From positions 1 through 37,500 of the forward strand of contig CANQYL010000009.1 in the NCBI GenBank assembly GCA_947628035.1: DNA of 37,500 nucleotides, in the 5' to 3' direction. The stretch's first letter is position 1, and every line of letters starts with the position of its first letter. Origin of the DNA: an uncultured Akkermansia sp. (GTDB taxonomy: Bacteria > Verrucomicrobiota > Verrucomicrobiia > Verrucomicrobiales > Akkermansiaceae). Made by a program: the position numbers and the translations under genes. Below, piece after piece: positions 18,301 through 37,500 of this stretch. The notes beneath the pieces are model-generated. The model saw only the letters and a program-made list of their open reading frames with translations, ran no database searches and was not told the DNA's origin.

Positions 18301-21300
18301 CGTCACCTTCACGGAAACGGACGGGGTTCTCACGTTCAATGACGGGTCGGAAAGAACGCCGGAGGAAACCAAGACTTACAGCGGGACGATCGGGGGCGAG
18401 AATGTCAGCCTCGTGATGGAGGCGGGCAACCAGACGCTCACGCAGGCGTTCGACGGCAAGGGCATCACGGTGACCGGCGGCAAGCTGAGCGTGGCGGGCG
18501 GCACGTTTGAGACCCTCGCGGGCGGCGAGACGGCAGGCGGTGACCTGACGCTCACCGGCGACCTGACGGTAGGCAACGTGGACGGCAAGCTGGGGACTCT
18601 CGACCTGGGTGCGAATAGGCTGACCTTGAACAGCGGCACCTTGGATGTGACCGGACTGACGGCGACAGAAGAGGGCAGCCTGGCGATTTCGCTCACGGGC
18701 GGCGTTCAGTTTGCCGGCAGCATGGGCGGTCTCAAGTTGGACGTGGACAGCAAGCTGGATGTGCATCTCAGCTACGAGGACATCAAGGGTTACCTTGCGG
18801 ACGGCTATCAGCTCTTTGTCGGTGAAGATGTGGATACGACCACCATCGGGCAGGATCTGGAGTTTGTGGTGGATGACGAAGAAGACAATTACACGGTGGC
18901 GCTCAGCGAGGACGGGAAGCTCACGTTCACGGAGGTGCACACGCTCCTTACGTGGAACGGCGCGACTACCGACCTGACGTGGGAAAGCGCCGGAGTTCAG
19001 AAGGCCGATGGCTGGAGCCACGACGGCACCTTCGGTGAAAAGCAGGATGTCACGTTCCACGGCACGGCGACAAGCGATGTGACGGTCTCTCTCGACGGTC
19101 CGATTGTGGTGGACGACATGGAGGTGGGAGCGGAAGGGGAGGGTGCGACGGGTTACGTGTTCACGACGACGGAGGATGCTCCCGACGCGACGTTGACCGT
19201 GGACGGCACGCTGACGCTCAACGACGCCGCCACGTTTGAGGTGGACACGGAGGTGAAGGGTGCGCTGGCAGGCAAGGCGGATCTGACCGTGAAGGGGAGC
19301 CTGACGCTCGACAATGCTCTCGACGGGACGACCTTCGCCGGCGGTGTCACGCTGGACGGCGGTACGCTCAATCTGACGGAAGATAACACGCTGGGCGAAG
19401 GCAAGAAGCTCACGCTCGGTACAGGTGACAGCGCGATCAACGGCTCCATCACGGCTGAACTCGACGGACAGGGCGCCGGGAAACTGACCCTGGACAAGGG
19501 CAACCAGAACCTCTCCGGCTCGACTTCGGGTGTGGTTGAGGTGGGTGAGGGCGGTACGCTCACGAGCGACAAGCTCACGGTGGGCGGACTGAGCGGCAGC
19601 GGTACGGTGGGCGGATCCGTCACGGTGGACGGCACAGGCGGTACGTTTGACGGAACGATCGCAGGTCCGCTGGAACTCACCGTCAACAACGGCACGCAGG
19701 GCTTCAAGCAGAACGCGAAGCTCTCGGATGTCGCCCTCAACGGCGGCAAGCTGAATCTCGCCGAGGGCGGCTCGATCTCGAACCTGAATGCCGCGGGCGG
19801 TTCGCTGGAGGTCGGCGGCGATGTGAATGTCGACTCCGTGGCGGGCAGCCTGACGCAACTCAACCTGGGCGACAGGGCGACGATGCGCGTCAAAGGCGAA
19901 GGAATGACGATCACGGACGGCTTTGCCTGGGGACAGGGAGCCACGCTGGGTATCGGCTCGCAGTTCACGATCACTCTCGCGGAGGGTATGACGCTTGCGC
20001 AGCCCGGCGAGGGTGGGCAGCTCACGATTGACCTCTCCTCAGAGGTGCTGGATCAATTCCGTAGTGGCGATTGGCAGCTCTTCAACGGTTTCAAAGAGGA
20101 GTGGAGTGAATACTTCAAATTCACCATCGATGGGCAAGCCGTGGATGAGTATCGGTACGGCGATGATTTCGGATTGGATGCCGATGGCAGACTCACGTGG
20201 ACGGAGCCGGAGCACGGCAACCTGTACTGGAATGCCGATAAGGACGACGATGGAACGCTGGACTGGAACACCAAAGACAGAGAATGGAGTGACCCGGCGG
20301 AGAGAGAGAAGCCGAACGTGGCTTGGCCGGAAGGCGCGTCCGACAAGACGAATGTCCACATAACCGACCCGACTCCGGAAGAGGATCCTGATCACACGGT
20401 GAACATGGAAGGTGGCGTGACGGCGAACAATGTGGAGTTCAACGGAGGTAATTACGAGTTCACAGAAGGAATGGGGGGAGGCACGCTCAAGACAAACGAT
20501 CTCACCGTGGGAACGGGAACGACCGTTGACTTCGGCGACAAGCAACTGGACGTGGGCGGCAATCTGGAAGTGAGTGAAGGCAGCATACTGACCACGACGG
20601 GAGACACGACGGTGACGGGCGATTTCTCACTCGGAAACAACGGCGGTGCAAACATCGGCGGCGCGTTGAGCGTAGGTGGCAACTTGACCACGGGCGAGAG
20701 CAACGCGCTGGAAGCGGGTTCCGCAACGGTGCAGGGTGACCTCTCGATTGGGGCGAACGGCGGTGCAAACATCGACGGCACGCTGGACGTGGGCGGCAAG
20801 CTGACCACGGGTAACAGCAGTACGCTGACGGCGGGAGGCGCGTTGAGCGTGGCGGGCGGAGTGACCACGGGCGAGGGCAGCACGCTGGAAGCGGGTTCCG
20901 CGACGGTGCAGGGCGGAGTGACCTTGGGTGACGGAAGTACGCTGACGACGACCGAGGGCGACGCGACGGTGACGGGTGACCTCTCGATTGGGGCGAACGG
21001 CGGTGCAAACATCGATGGCACGCTGAGTGTGGACGGAAACCTGACAACTCACGACGAGAGCAAGCTGACCACGGCGGAAGATACGACTGTGACGGGTGAT
21101 TTCTCGCTCGGAAACAAGGGCGAGGCAAACATCGATGGCGCGCTGAGCGTGGACGGCAGCTTGACCACGGGCGAGAGCAGCACGCTGGAAGCGGGTTCCG
21201 CAACGGTGCAGGGTGACCTCTCGATTGGGGCGAACGGCGGTGCAAACATCGACGGCACGCTGGACGTGGGCGGCAAGCTGACCACGGGTAACAGCAGTAC

Positions 21301-24300
21301 GCTGACGGCGGGAGGCGCGTTGAGCGTGGCGGGCGGAGTGACCACGGGCGAGGGCAGCACGCTGGAAGCGGGTTCCGCGACGGTGCAGGGCGGAGTGACC
21401 TTGGGTGACGGAAGTACGCTGACGACGACCGAGGGCGACGCGACGGTGACGGGTGACCTCTCGATTGGGGCGAACGGCGGTGCAAACATCGATGGCACGC
21501 TGAGTGTGGACGGAAACCTGACAACTCACGACGAGAGCACGCTGGTCACGGCAGGTGACACGACTGTGACGGGTGACCTCTCGCTCGGAAACAAGGGCGG
21601 GGCAAACATCGACGGCGCGTTGAGCGTGGACGGCAGCTTGACCACGGGCAAGGAAAGCAATCTGACAGCCGGCTCCGTGACGGTGCAGGGCGAGGGCGGA
21701 ATGACCTTGGGTGACAGCAGTACGCTGACGGCGGAAGGCGCGTTGAGCGTGGCGGCGGGCGGAGTGACCACGGGCGAGGGCAGCACGCTGGAAGCGGGTT
21801 CCGCGACGGTGGCGGGCGGAGTGACCTTGAGCAGCGGCAGCAGAGCGACGACGAATGGCAAGCTGGATGTGACGGGCGATGTGAGCGTGGGCAGCGGTTC
21901 GCTGACGGCGAATGGCGGCGTCACGGTGACCGGCGAGCTGAAGGCGGAAGGCGGGAATCTGACGGTGGGGGGAGAGAGCACGCTGGGGTCGGTGAGCGGC
22001 AATTTCACCGGACTGGAGATTGAGAAAGACGGTACCTTGACCGTGCAGAAAGGAAAGGGCTTGACGGCGGACAGCTTCACCTGGGGTAGCGACAGCACGC
22101 TGAGTCTCGGGAAGCGCTTCAAAGGCACGCTGGACTTCGGCAAGCTCACCGGCACGGAGGATGATCGGCTCACTCTCGATTTGTCCAGCGAATTCTTGGA
22201 TCAGCTCGAGTCCGGAGACACGTTCTTCAAGGATGTGACGGGATACGGCGAGGGCTGGAACGGTCTGTTTGACTTTACCATCAACGGCAGGTCGATCGAA
22301 GAGTTCCGCAACGGGTACTACAATGATCTGCACATCACGGCGGACGGAACCCTGGCGTGGAGCGAAAAGGAGCACGGTCCGGACTACACCAGTTCCGAGG
22401 ACAACATCGGCAACAAGTGGAACACGAATGGCAAGAACATCTATGACAGCGTAGGCGACTACAGAAACGTCATCGTGGACAAAGACACGAACATCAGCTT
22501 CGCCGGCGCGGACGTGAATGAGTCGAAGGGCGTTGAGCAGTGGAGTGTGGACGGTCTGACGGTGCACAACCTGCAGGGCGGTGAGAAGGGCGTCACGTTG
22601 ACCATCACCGGTGATAGAGGACCCAACAACAAGGTGACGCTCAGGAACACCTCCGTCGGCGAGCATGACCTGACGTACGCCGGCGGACTCACGGTGGTGG
22701 GCGCTGAGTTGCACATCTCCCACGAGGATACCGACCCGGATAGCCTCGACCAGGGCGCCGTATGGAGTACGGTGATGGGCGGAAATCTCGACCTTTCGGG
22801 TGGAATGGGGCTCTTCATGGATCGCGGCGTGCTCGAACTCCAAGGCGGAGCGAACAAGCTCACCAACGTCACCTTCACGAACGATTGCGACGGTCAGCTC
22901 GTGGTGAACGGAGGAGCCGCGACGGTCTCCGGGAACATTGTCCTGGGGAGCGAAGAAGCCGTGTACACGAAGGATGCGGATGGCAAGGAGGTGACGCGCG
23001 ACCACGTGCGACTTGAGAACGGCGGCGTGCTGGAACTCGATGGCATAACGGTGGGCGCAGGTGTGACCATCGGCGGTGATGACAGCGACAACGTCGTGAG
23101 GGCGAAGGGGAATGTCAGCATGGAGAAGGGGAGCAAACTCAGCGGTGCGCACCTCGTCTTGGCAGGCAATACTGTGCTGGATGTGGGCAAGGGTGAGACT
23201 GAAGCGGCATCCGATCCATTCAGCATCTACGGCATCCAGTCCGACGGGGGACATCTCACCGGTAATCGGGACATGAACATCGCCGTGCAAGGGGATCATC
23301 GCTTCACCGGGAGCATGGAAGGGTACTCGGGCAAGATGTCCTTCACTTCTCAAGTCAAGAGGATCGAGGACATTTTCATGCCGCCGACGCAGCGCTTCAC
23401 TCAGGTGACGACCGGCAGCAGAGACTGGGATATGGAGGTCGGCTCCGGGGCTCACGTGGAGCTCAACGTGCTCAACAGCGAGGGCAAGAACGCCGGTTGG
23501 GAGATGGGAGATATCACGCTGCGTGCGGGATCGACGACCACACTCGGCTTTACCTTCTCCTCCGACGGAGTGAAATCCGCCACGGAAACGGGGATGAGCT
23601 TCACCGGCTTCCTCATGGAGGACGGCGCGACTCTGACTCTGCGTGCGGACGGTGACGCGATGCCCACGGGCACGGAGTTTGTGCTGGGCAAGGTGGTGGA
23701 TGGAGGCGAGGTGGATCTGCACTGGTCCGTCAGCAAGGATGAGGAATCTGCGGAGGGCGAGGCGAAGGGGGATAACGGCGGGGAAGAGCTCGCCGCCGCG
23801 AAAGCGGCTCCTGAGCCGAGAGATCAGGTGAACCCCAATGTGCTGGAGCTTCAGAAGGACAATCTCGAGGGCAACGCCTGGCTGCACGTGGAGAGCGCCA
23901 AGATTGTGCATAAAGGTGACCAGATCAAGCTGGTGATGGAGATGATAAAGGGCAACGCGCTGGCGGACGCGGTGCAGGGTGTTCACGAGAACGCCACCGA
24001 GGGCGCCAAGGCTCTCTGGCAGCTCACCGACACCGTCAATAATCCGAAGGGGAATGAGAATCTCAACGACCGGAATTCCGACACCTCCAAGTTGGTCTCG
24101 GATGCCACGAGTCTCCTGGACGGCGAAAACAAGAGCGAACTCGCCAAACTGCTGGCATCGGCGGCGGGCGCCGGCTACACCGGCTACACCGCGGCCCTCG
24201 GCGAGGATATGCACCGCCAGCTCACCGCTATCCGCAACCGGACGACTTCCATGGGCGATGAGGTACAGTCGGCCCGGGATGAAGATTTGCCCTACTGGCA

Positions 24301-25144: not shown

Positions 25145-25445
25145 GCATGGACGATGGACGATGTACGATGGACGATGTAGGAAATTCCGCGCCGTTGGCG
25201 CAATTTAGCGGAGCGGGAGCGCAGCGGAATTTTTGGAACGATGCGAGATGGCTCATTAGAAAGCGGCCGGAGTTTCGCCATGCCATCGTGTCGGCTTTGC
25301 TTCCATCGTCCATCGTCCATGTCTTGATTTACGATTTGAGAAATTCGCGCGCTCCGCGCGGTTTATGCGGAGCGAGAGCGCAGCGGAATTTTCCGGAACG
25401 ATGCGAGATGGCTCATTAGAAAGCGTCCGGAGTTTCGCCATGCCG
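25145..25445 (+). repeat. Dispersed composite repeat, copy A (heptads + two palindromic cores + duplicated tail)
   Basis: GGACGAT heptads from 25149; core GAAATTCCGCGCC...GCAGCGGAATTTTT 25181-25234; second core 25340-25392; tail '(G)GAACGATGCGAGATGGCTCATTAGAAAGCGKCCGGAGTTTCGCCATGCC' present twice (25235-25284 and ~25394-25444); CCATCGTCCATCGTCCAT at 25303-25320. Confidence 0.85.
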
Positions 25446-27074: not shown

Positions 27075-27104
27075 CCTCATTTTCCTCATCACACTCCGTG
27101 TGTT

Positions 27105-27184
27105 GTTTCAAAATTCCGCTGCGCTCTCGCTCCGCATAACCCGCGCGTAGCGCGCGAACTTCCTACATCGTCCATCGTAAATAA
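27105..27184 (-). repeat. Dispersed composite repeat, copy B (core 27110-27162)
   Basis: Minus strand GAAGTTCGCGCGCTACGCGCGGGTTATGCGGAGCGAGAGCGCAGCGGAATTTTGAAAC; flanked by TTTACGATGGACGATG. Confidence 0.8.
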
Positions 27185-29969: not shown

Positions 29970-30206
29970 TCCGCTCCGCACTCCTTCGCACCGCGCGTGT
30001 AGCGCGCTGCATCCAAATCGTCAATCAAGACATGGACGATGGACGATGGACGATGGACGATGGACGATGGAAGCAAAGCCGACACGATGGCATGGCGAAA
30101 CTCCGGCCGCTTTCGAATCAACAACCCGCATCGTTTCAAAAATTCCGCTGCGCTCCCGCTCCGCATAAACCGCGCGTAGCGCGCGAATTTCTCAAATCGT
30201 AAATCG
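29970..30206 (-). repeat. Dispersed composite repeat, copy C (reverse orientation of copy A)
   Basis: Five perfect GGACGAT heptads 30034-30068; then AAGCAAAGCCGACACGATGGCATGGCGAAACTCCGGCCGCTTTC (reverse complement of copy A); core 30138-30191; AAATCGTAAATCGTAAATAG. Confidence 0.85.
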
Positions 30207-30242
30207 TAAATAGCCGGAAAGGCAGGCCTTGCCGGCTATTTA
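30207..30242 (-). terminator. Hairpin overlapping the ispH stop codon
   Basis: TAAATAGCCGG ... CCGGCTATTTA 11-bp perfect arms with inner AAGGC/GCCTT; on the minus strand the first three nt are the ispH TAA stop; followed by the repeat CGATTTACGATTTG. Confidence 0.6.
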
Positions 30243-31457: not shown

Positions 31458-31477
31458 AGTGAAAACCCCTTCCGCGA

Positions 31478-31557
31478 TACCGGCTGTGGGACTCGAACCC
31501 ACACTCGTTAGAACTCGATTTTGAGTCGAGCGCGTCTACCAATTCCGCCAAGCCGGC
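31478..31557 (-). tRNA. tRNA-Leu (anticodon CAA)
   Basis: Minus strand GCCGGCTTGGCGGAATTGGTAGACGCGCTCGACTCAAAATCGAGTTCTAACGAGTGTGGGTTCGAGTCCCACAGCCGGTA; anticodon stem CTCGA/TCGAG with loop CTCAAAA; T-arm TGTGGGTTCGAGTCCCACA. Confidence 0.93.
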
Positions 31558-31570
31558 AAGGAATGCGCTG

Positions 31571-31599: not shown

Positions 31600-31628
31600 G
31601 TCACTTCTTTATTCGATCAATGTTAGCA

Positions 31629-31815
31629 CACATCCGTCCCAAGAAAAAGCGATGCCCAATAGGTATTTAATGGCGGATAATGTGGCATAACCCGTTGATT
31701 ATGTACGAAGGACGAAGGACGATGGACGATGGACGGTGGACGATGGACGATGTGAATAAACGCGTTGGGGAATGGGTTGAATGAGTCCGGAGAAAATTTT
31801 CTTGGGACACGTGTG
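31629..31815. mobile_element. MITE-like element carrying a heptad array
   Basis: Terminal inverted repeats CACATCCGTCCCAAGAAAA (31629-31647) / CACACGTGTCCCAAGAAAA (reverse complement of 31797-31815), 16/19 identical; perfect 9-bp direct repeats ATGTTAGCA at 31620-31628 and 31816-31824; seven heptads at 31704-31752. Confidence 0.7.
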
Positions 31816-31925
31816 ATGTTAGCAAGACGGCAAACCATTGACGATTCAGCAAGGCGGTCGACGGTCCCGGTGGAGCGGCGCTGAGTCAAAGCCGTGAAAT
31901 CCGGTATGGCGTAATTTCTTTTGGA

Positions 31926-31953
31926 TTGACATCGACGCTGGTTGTGGTAGAGT
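31926..31953 (+). promoter_or_regulatory. plsX promoter
   Basis: Consensus TTGACA (31926-31931), 16-bp spacer, TAGAGT (31948-31953); ATG at 31983. Confidence 0.55.
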
Positions 31954-31982
31954 ACGCTCAAATAAGAAACAGCCTGCCTTTT

Positions 31983-33039: not shown

Positions 33040-33230
33040 CTCCGCATATCCCGCGCCTCCGGCGCGCTAAAATCAAATCGTAAATCGTACATCGAAAATC
33101 GTCAATAGGCGCCGTCAGGCGCCCCCGCCCCATGCTCCATTCTTCCCGCTACGCATCCGCTCCGCATATCCCGCGCGCATGCGCGCTAAAATCTCCATCG
33201 TCCATCGTCCATCGTCCATCGTCCATCATA
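33040..33230 (-). repeat. Dispersed composite repeat, variant copies E
   Basis: Two CTCCGCATATCCCGCGC..GCGCGCTAAAAT variants (33040-33073, 33160-33193), AAATCGTAAATCGTACATCGAAAATCGTC, hairpin GGCGCCGTCAGGCGCC 33108-33123, TCCATCG heptads 33194-33228. Confidence 0.75.
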
Positions 33231-34693: not shown

Positions 34694-34814
34694 GACTTTT
34701 TTGGGGAAATTCGAAAGTATTTCACAATCGCTCGGAAAAACACTGAAATAAGGGCATCGTTCATGTGTTGGTTTACGATGCCGGGAATTCTCATATCGAT
34801 GGCGCGAGGAGCCG

Positions 34815-35135
34815 GGCAAACGCATTTGGAAATGCGTTTGCCTATTTACGATTTACGATTTACAAAGCCCACGAGGGCTCGGAGTGGGATTGGACAAAAT
34901 GCGCAAGCATTTTGCCCGAAGGGCGCTGAGGCAGGGTGGTGCCGAAGCGTCAATTTACGATGTGGGGAATTCCGCGCCGTTGGCGCAATCTAGCGGAGCG
35001 AGAGCGCGGCGGAATTTTTGAAACGATGCGGGTTGTTGATTCGAAAGTGACCGGAGTTTCGCCATGCCGGCTGCACTGCTTTGCTCCCATCGTCCATCGT
35101 CCATGTCTTGATCTACGATTTACGATGTGGGGAGT
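34815..35135 (+). repeat. Dispersed composite repeat, copy F (preceded by hairpin)
   Basis: 13-bp perfect hairpin 34815-34842 followed by TATTTACGATTTACGATTTAC; core 34966-35019; tail AAACGATGCGGGTTGTTGATTCGAAAGTGACCGGAGTTTCGCCATGCC; CCATCGTCCATCGTCCATGTCTTGATCTACGATTTACGATG. Confidence 0.8.
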
Positions 35136-35419: not shown

Positions 35420-37500
35420 ATGAGATACGAACGACAGCAACGGAGAGTGGGTCGGATGGGAAGGCAAATAGGAGTGATAACCATGTTGGCGCTGGGAAGT
35501 TGGCTAGCGAGAGGTGAAGGGCTGAAGGATATGGAGAGGGTAGAGGAGTGGATGTTTTGGAATGAAGGGATGTTGATGAACGCGGGAGGAGAGGTATTTG
35601 AGCAAGGGGACAGCGTGAATTTTGTGGAGGATGTGGTTGTGGGGTTGATGGATGACATACGGTGCGGCACGGTGCGGGTGGAGAGGGGAATAGAAGTTAC
35701 GATGATGCCATACAGCGGGAATTTGTACATGGATGAGTTGCAGCTGGAGGGGACGTTGGTGTTCACAGCGCCGTGGGTATTGAGCAACCACTGGGTGATT
35801 CACGCCGGGGAAGAGGGGAAGATCGTGATGGACATGGGATATTTTGACGTGGAACTCGGGGTGGCGCTTCCGGGCGAGTATGAGGGTGATCTGGAGATCA
35901 GGAGCGGACGCATGAGGTACCGGGAGGATACGGGGGAGTTGCACTTCAAGAGTCTTACGATCACGGATGGCGCGCAATTGGCGCTGGAGGAGGGAAGCGA
36001 TTACACAGGGGAGATTGTTTTGAGCGGAAAGGGGTGGATCAAGAACGACGGAGAGACGGGGAAAGGATGCGTCCTGTTTAAGAACGGCGGAGAGAATCGG
36101 GCGACGCTGGGCGGTCACATCGCACTGGCGGGAGAGACCGTGCTGAATGTGGCACGGGAAGAGGACTGTGGAGTGATCGAAGGGGAGCTGGATGCCGCAG
36201 GACACAAATTGGTGAAGGTGGGGCAAGGGGAGTTGCGAGTGGAGGGAGGGAGAGTAAGCGGGTTGGACGGGGTCGAGGTGGATGAAGGGAAGTTGATTTT
36301 CATGGAGGACGTGGAGACGCAGAGATTGCACGTGAGTGGGACGGGAGAACTGGAATTGCAGGGGAAGGGGAATCGGTTGGGTCTCCTGGAGCTGGAGGAG
36401 GAGACACGAGTGGAGATGCAGGCGGGCGAGATCGGCGAATTGAGAGGAACAGGAGGACTCACCGTCACAGGCGGGGAGTTGCGGCTCGAGAAAATCAACG
36501 ACTTTAGCGGCGAGCTGCACGGGAAGAAGTTGTGGCTGGGAGGAATCTCTGTGGAGGAGGGGGCGGAGGCAACAGTTGATCTGCTGGATTTTGAGCGGAT
36601 TGAGGTATCGGACGGGGAAAGTGCCGAGGTGCGCTCTGTGCGCGCGGCGGGAGGGACGACGATAGGCGGGGGAGGAGAGCTGAGATTGAGGGCGGAGAGA
36701 CTGGCGGATGGAGAGCTGAATACCGGAAACCTCACCATTGACGGGGCGCATCTGCACCTGCTGCAGCCGAAGGAAGGAGGGATGAGCGAGATGGCGAGGG
36801 TCGAGGTGAGGGAAGGCGGTAGCCTGTACGTTGAAGCGGCGCGGGAAGGGGGAAATACGCAGTTGCACGTGGAGGAATTGGAGTTGCGGAGGGGTTCGCG
36901 GCTGGAACTCGTTTTCAACCTCGGCGCTGCCGTATCATCCGGGGAGGGAGATACGGCGCGAGGCCTGCTCAGCGGCTCTGTGCGTTCGGAAGCCGGGGCT
37001 CTGCTCTCCCTACGCGTGACAGGTATTGATGATGACTTCGAGTTCGACGGAGGTCATTACATGGAATTTCTTCTTGCGGATGAATTTGCCGGTGAGATCA
37101 GTTTGGATGATGCGACGGAGGATTTCATGCAAAAGTATTTTGGCAACAGCGGTCAACTCGTCGTGAGGGACGGGATGCTGCTGTTCACGGGAACGACTGT
37201 GATGGAGGAAGCGGAGCAGCCTGACCAAGGGGAGCAAACACCGCCGGAGGGTCAGGAGGGCGGCGAGTTGCCGGAGGATCCCGGAGAGACGGAGGATCCC
37301 CAGCAACCTCAGCAGGGGGAACCGACACCACCGGAGGGTCAGGAGGGCGGCGAGTTGCCCGATGATCCCGGAGAGACGGAGGAGCCTCAGCAGCCTCAGC
37401 AGGATGAGCCGACACCGCCAGGTGGTCAGGAGGGCGGCGAGTTGCCGGAGGATCCCGGAGAGACGGAGGATCCCCAGCAACCTCAGCAGGGGGAACCGAC
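35420..37500 (+). CDS. Second autotransporter/adhesin-like surface protein, 3'-truncated by the window edge
   Basis: Open frame from ATG 35420 (alternative ATG 35456: MGRQIGVITMLALGSWLARGEG, signal-peptide-like) to the window end without a stop. Beta-strand-repeat passenger (e.g. LTVTGGELRLEKINDFSGELHGKKLW; NTGNLTIDGAHLHLLQPKEGG), then an acidic Pro/Gln-rich repeat. Absent from the ORF track because no stop is reached. Confidence 0.85.
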   Translation, partial: MRYERQQRRVGRMGRQIGVITMLALGSWLARGEGLKDMERVEEWMFWNEGMLMNAGGEVFEQGDSVNFVEDVVVGLMDDIRCGTVRVERGIEVTMMPYSGNLYMDELQLEGTLVFTAPWVLSNHWVIHAGEEGKIVMDMGYFDVELGVALPGEYEGDLEIRSGRMRYREDTGELHFKSLTITDGAQLALEEGSDYTGEIVLSGKGWIKNDGETGKGCVLFKNGGENRATLGGHIALAGETVLNVAREEDCGVIEGELDAAGHKLVKVGQGELRVEGGRVSGLDGVEVDEGKLIFMEDVETQRLHVSGTGELELQGKGNRLGLLELEEETRVEMQAGEIGELRGTGGLTVTGGELRLEKINDFSGELHGKKLWLGGISVEEGAEATVDLLDFERIEVSDGESAEVRSVRAAGGTTIGGGGELRLRAERLADGELNTGNLTIDGAHLHLLQPKEGGMSEMARVEVREGGSLYVEAAREGGNTQLHVEELELRRGSRLELVFNLGAAVSSGEGDTARGLLSGSVRSEAGALLSLRVTGIDDDFEFDGGHYMEFLLADEFAGEISLDDATEDFMQKYFGNSGQLVVRDGMLLFTGTTVMEEAEQPDQGEQTPPEGQEGGELPEDPGETEDPQQPQQGEPTPPEGQEGGELPDDPGETEEPQQPQQDEPTPPGGQEGGELPEDPGETEDPQQPQQGEP
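37233..37500 (+). repeat. 87-bp (29-aa) tandem repeats, GEQTPPEGQEGGELPEDPGETEDPQQPQQ
   Basis: GGTCAGGAGGGCGGCGAGTTG recurs with exact 87-bp period (GTC at 37251, 37338, 37425); continues to the window edge. Confidence 0.9.

Follow-up and report, generated by a model that had tools for sequence, protein, structure and literature searches.

Mobile insertion cassettes (MICs), which are related to IS231 of the IS4 family, consist of IS4-family ends around unrelated DNA, carry passenger genes and are moved in trans. The IS4Sa subgroup is recognized by a size of 1150-1750 bp, ends of the form CA------T and a target-site duplication of 8-10 bp (PMC2266710). In Porphyromonas gingivalis, the BrickBuilt MITE has a conserved leader and a conserved tail that enclose a tract of tandem repeats, and its ends resemble those of a resident IS family (PMC4596501), and intergenic arrays of TAACTGA heptamers with no evident mechanism of spread have been described in Beggiatoaceae (PMC4679880).

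In the present work, a stretch of 37,500 nucleotides (hereafter, the window) from an Akkermansia sp. genome was analyzed. This genome (G000) is a 2.36-Mb assembly of 160 contigs, and its nearest named genomes are metagenome assemblies of Akkermansia sp., with isolate names suggestive of rabbit and goat gut. A 187-bp element located between tRNA-Leu/ispH and plsX is very probably an IS4-type MITE, a non-autonomous element inserted at this position by an IS4-family transposase. Like the MICs, it has IS4-family ends around an unrelated interior, although passenger genes are absent. It has the same ends and duplication length as a candidate partner IS found in a congener (G087), but differs from the IS4Sa subgroup (PMC2266710) in having no transposase gene, only the terminal 19 bp being common. 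With BrickBuilt (PMC4596501) it shares an internal tandem-repeat tract enclosed by conserved terminal parts, ends resembling an IS family and many copies without both ends; the units of BrickBuilt, however, are 23 bp long, its ends are of the IS5 family and its duplications are irregular, whereas in the Akkermansia MITE the units measure 7 bp, the ends are of the IS4 family, the duplications are consistently 9 bp long and the interior modules are interchangeable. The Beggiatoaceae arrays (PMC4679880) are, like those of Akkermansia, intergenic heptamer direct repeats at many genome sites, although of a different unit. BrickBuilt is the nearest counterpart in build, and the Beggiatoaceae heptamers are the nearest one for the arrays alone. 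Among the papers searched, none described a MITE in Akkermansia, the one hit being an unrelated study. The reading as an IS4-type MITE is well supported; the family is new but its kind is known, and its internal repeat is of interest.

Structure and genomic setting of the element

The boundaries of the element were checked base by base (31629-31815, plus strand), and it was delimited on the basis of its ends, its duplication and the multicopy family to which it belongs. Perfect 9-bp direct repeats (ATGTTAGCA) flank it at 31620-31628 and 31816-31824. The terminal inverted repeats (TIRs) are imperfect, with 16 of 19 positions identical, 12 of them consecutive: the left one (CACATCCGTCCCAAGAAAA, 31629-31647, plus strand) agrees at all 19 positions with each end of the IS4-family IS of G087, and the right one is CACACGTGTCCCAAGAAAA (31797-31815, minus strand). 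Inwards of the left end, a conserved terminal module of about 72 bp (31629-31700, plus strand), common to most family copies, is followed by an array of about seven ATGGACG-type heptads (31701-31752, plus strand; 7.4 copies, 88% matches), found at a similar place in other copies, and by a conserved right terminal module of 58 bp (31758-31815, plus strand) with DNA matches to family copies. The G+C content of the element was 48%, compared to 58% for the window. At a size threshold of at least 80 aa, the single ORF overlapping it (112 aa, minus strand, 31623-31961) spans element and flank and is unsupported; the element therefore falls among short sequences (about 50-1000 bp) without a transposase gene, as is typical of MITEs. 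The original prediction of a 187-bp element with a 9-bp duplication, imperfect 19-bp TIRs including a 12-bp perfect stretch, a central seven-unit heptad array and no ORF of note proved correct, its boundaries to the base.

Gene and tRNA calls bore out the predicted position as well. To the left lies tRNA-Leu(CAA) (minus strand, about 31476-31558), with ispH farther left on the same strand; plsX lies to the right. The promoter scan found a single promoter, the sigma-70-like one of plsX (31926-31953), and none within the element. An inverted interior-module fragment of the MITE repeat family (31825-31858, minus strand) adjoins the element on the target side. A reading of the element as a structured RNA was rejected, given modest fold z values (-1.6 and -1.4), and an Rfam search at the locus returned no family except tRNA. 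Longer tandem repeats were also present in the window at 20588-21649 and 37238-37500 (a 477-bp unit in 2.2 copies with 94% matches, and an 87-bp unit in 3 copies).

A multicopy family with 9-bp duplications

The DNA search yielded 53 matches to the element in G000, many of them starting exactly at its left end or stopping exactly at its right end with the middle missing, and in dozens of further copies the alignments ended at exactly these boundaries. In the genome search for the same termini that had been proposed earlier, G000 gave 111 occurrences of the 19-bp terminus at a tolerance of 2 mismatches, against 3 matches for a control pattern. The terminus also occurred in a dozen congeners, with up to 279 matches in one, while the control pattern had 0 there. 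These data derive from draft metagenome assemblies, with one genome per species.

Among 25 inverted TIR pairs of G000, drawn from stretches selected for holding termini, a perfect 9-bp duplication was present in 8 and one with at most one mismatch in 12, while mispaired left and right flanks of different copies gave a 9-bp match in 0 of 600 cases. The duplications varied among copies, matching within true pairs only, and 9 bp was the only length that stood out, one further pair having 8 bp. In the congener G016, two of the seven copies examined had perfect 9-bp repeats and one a single mismatch. The recurring ends, the excess of termini over the control and the single duplication length together place the element beyond chance. 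Duplication-flanked copies in G000 ranged from 187 to 589 bp, all except the window copy measuring 253-589 bp, and 60 termini were unpaired. In addition, a recurrent 28-bp sequence (AATTGCAAGAACAAATGCAACATATGAC) was observed near contig ends of G000 (C13, C14, C26, C32, C40, C105, C108, C122, C126 and C138) and of congeners; it probably marks the border of a further multicopy element at which the assembly breaks.

Interior modules and heptad arrays

The interior of the MITE is not a deleted transposase gene. It consists of the conserved left end, the heptad tract, interchangeable intergenic modules in the longer copies and the conserved right end; in the duplication-flanked copies of G000, constant ends enclosed a heptad tract and varying modules, and two copies held nested elements of other types. 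The modules between the heptads and the right end of 330-340-bp copies were absent from the 187-bp copy, whose internal junction was unique, other G000 matches covering the left or the right part alone. The heptad tract lay 58-95 bp inside the left end in many copies, those of congeners included, and in G016 a tract made mostly of ATTTACG units occupied the corresponding place.

The free arrays of the window sat in intergenic mosaic repeats (25147-25445, 27100-27184, 29972-30211, 33050-33229 and 34814-35100), with modules in common with the MITE interior and without MITE ends. Their contents, in varying order, were variable GC-rich palindromes, ATTTACG and ATGGACG heptad arrays, and GCGCGC...GGAATTTT modules. 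As to the transposition route that had been suggested for the spread of heptad arrays, it held in part: among the ATGGACG arrays listed for G000 (contigs C1-C51), 16 of 51 lay just inside the left end of a MITE and can ride with it, but 35 of 51 were located elsewhere. Moreover, of the 76 genomes of the genus, 8 contained ATGGACG triplets, and many TIRs were present in 7 of these 8, yet several TIR-rich congeners (G061, G016) had no ATGGACG arrays. Transposition can carry heptads, yet it does not directly account for most arrays.

A tentative and rather doubtful proposal is that the MITE has the heptad tract as a constant component, which acts as a recombination joint. With the same heptads in MITEs and in intergenic mosaics, interiors would be swapped at the heptads, new modules would be picked up between the constant ends and then transposed, and the heptad unit would be homogenised genome-wide (ATGGACG in G000 and G068, ATTTACG in G016). 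Were this the case, the MITE would be an engine that makes and spreads modular intergenic repeats.

Other insertions were also observed within the family. In one MITE copy (L043, G000:C85:409-997) a second element was nested, bounded by GGCTCTGTCCTACCACAGTGTTGA ends and flanked by repeats of 8 bp (AAAATTTT), features that appear like those of ISL3-type elements; similar ends were present in L041 and L192. An inserted unit with ends ACACCTCTAAAAACT...GTTTTTAGAGGTG was found inside or beside heptad tracts at L016 and L041 (G000:C20 and C68).

A candidate partner IS in a congener

A full-length IS with the same ends, a search for which had been proposed with the original prediction, was found in the congener G087 and not in the window's own assembly. 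This complete IS is 1462 bp long, has CACATCCGTCCCAAGAAAA at both ends (perfect 19-bp TIRs) and is flanked on both sides by a 9-bp duplication (GGTGAAATT), so that the MITE has ends in common with an autonomous IS, at 19 of 19 positions for its left TIR and 16 of 19 for its right one. The common sequence is limited to about 19 bp per end and does not extend to the sub-terminal sequence. The single ORF of the IS (420 aa) encodes a product matching DUF4372 and DDE_Tnp_1, and the NCBIfam model for IS4 family transposases scored 251.8 bits (cut-off 115). The predicted transposase fits the IS4 family in its catalytic spacing of D-65-D-136-E and in its complete YREK motif, Y(2)R(3)E(6)K; moreover, the size of the IS, its ends (CACATCCGT) and its duplication length match the published hallmarks of IS4Sa, by which placement in this subgroup appears fitting. 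A search for solved structures resembling the G087 transposase by sequence found none.

Stretches from G014, G016 and G020, mostly contig ends, showed the same TIR followed by a leader and ORF start (MPKITILAQIAR), and in G014 a deletion had reduced one such IS to a TIR-flanked derivative of 500 bp whose ends are similar. In the G000 assembly, a protein search for DDE_Tnp_1, a search for relatives of the G087 transposase and a search for IS ends beyond the TIR all found none. The lack of such IS ends makes a real absence of the transposase from G000 more likely than an assembly gap, and the MITE copies of this genome may now be stranded without a transposase. The first IS candidates considered (L168-L178) were discarded: they were either ends lying beside contig edges or genes unrelated to an IS of this type, or IS whose termini are different (CACATGTGTCCCAAAGATT). 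Related IS4-family elements with that different terminus occurred at three loci (L190, L205 and L213) of G024, another species of the genus.

The empty site and the origin of the insertion

In order to locate an empty site, the two flanks without the element were searched against the 76 genomes of the genus. One match spanned the junction, in G068 (97% identity over 183 bases), a genome rich in the MITE family (108 terminus matches). It carries a single AAGCTAGCA where the window has two copies of ATGTTAGCA, these being identical to each other, with 2 of their 9 bases changed in G068. On the right side of the junction, the homology covers about 34 bp, which already include the inverted interior-module fragment, and then ends near the contig end, so that the right flank is short. 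In the nearest named relatives (L076-L079), the sequence upstream of the orthologous plsX differed, and these loci were uninformative as to an empty site. A relative with a single target copy, as had been foreseen, is thus present, and other copies of the terminus are abundant; neither of the outcomes named beforehand as speaking against an insertion appeared.

An IS4-family (IS4Sa-like) transposase supplied in trans would have inserted the element and duplicated 9 bp; the mover would be the G087-type transposase or a lost close relative, probably acting by cut-and-paste, the route usual for the IS4 family. The MITE-like insertion originally proposed is supported by the multicopy termini, the 9-bp duplications, the IS with the same ends and the empty site. 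It is scarcely credible that the element is no transposon at all and arose from the mosaic repeats by recombination or as a hairpin element, with direct repeats due to chance. Such an origin would agree with an interior common to mosaic repeats without TIRs and with the many unpaired termini, but the copy-specific duplications of true and not mispaired flanks, the empty site in G068 and the G087 IS argue against it, as do the unremarkable RNA fold and the Rfam result. As regards direction, a gain in the window genome would be favored over a loss in G068. The state of the duplications relative to the G068 site is compatible with either, and slippage between direct repeats can delete an insert; an element ancestral at the site and precisely lost in G068 is nevertheless improbable, since one empty site whose homology is intact on either side is just what a later insertion would be expected to show, and precise excision is rare.

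For the inserted IS4-type MITE, the internal deletion giving the 187-bp form may have happened after insertion, because no other G000 copy has its internal junction. There is slightly less than an even chance that a full-length member (about 330 bp) was inserted and later shortened to 187 bp through loss of DNA between the heptad array and the right end, in which case the 187-bp form itself would never have moved; this is a variant of the MITE reading rather than an alternative to it. The larger size of the other duplication-flanked copies points in the same direction, but perfect duplications also flank elements as short as about 250 bp in the G000 species and in another, and these indicate that short forms can move.

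Significance

Part of the repeat load in these Akkermansia genomes stems from a MITE family of IS4 type, and this may be one reason why their assemblies are fragmented and their intergenic regions vary. After BrickBuilt, it is a further example of a MITE in bacteria that has a tract of tandem repeats built in. Its 9-bp duplications are clear, a candidate partner IS has been identified, and it offers a system in which transposition-driven spread and turnover of short tandem repeats could be tested.
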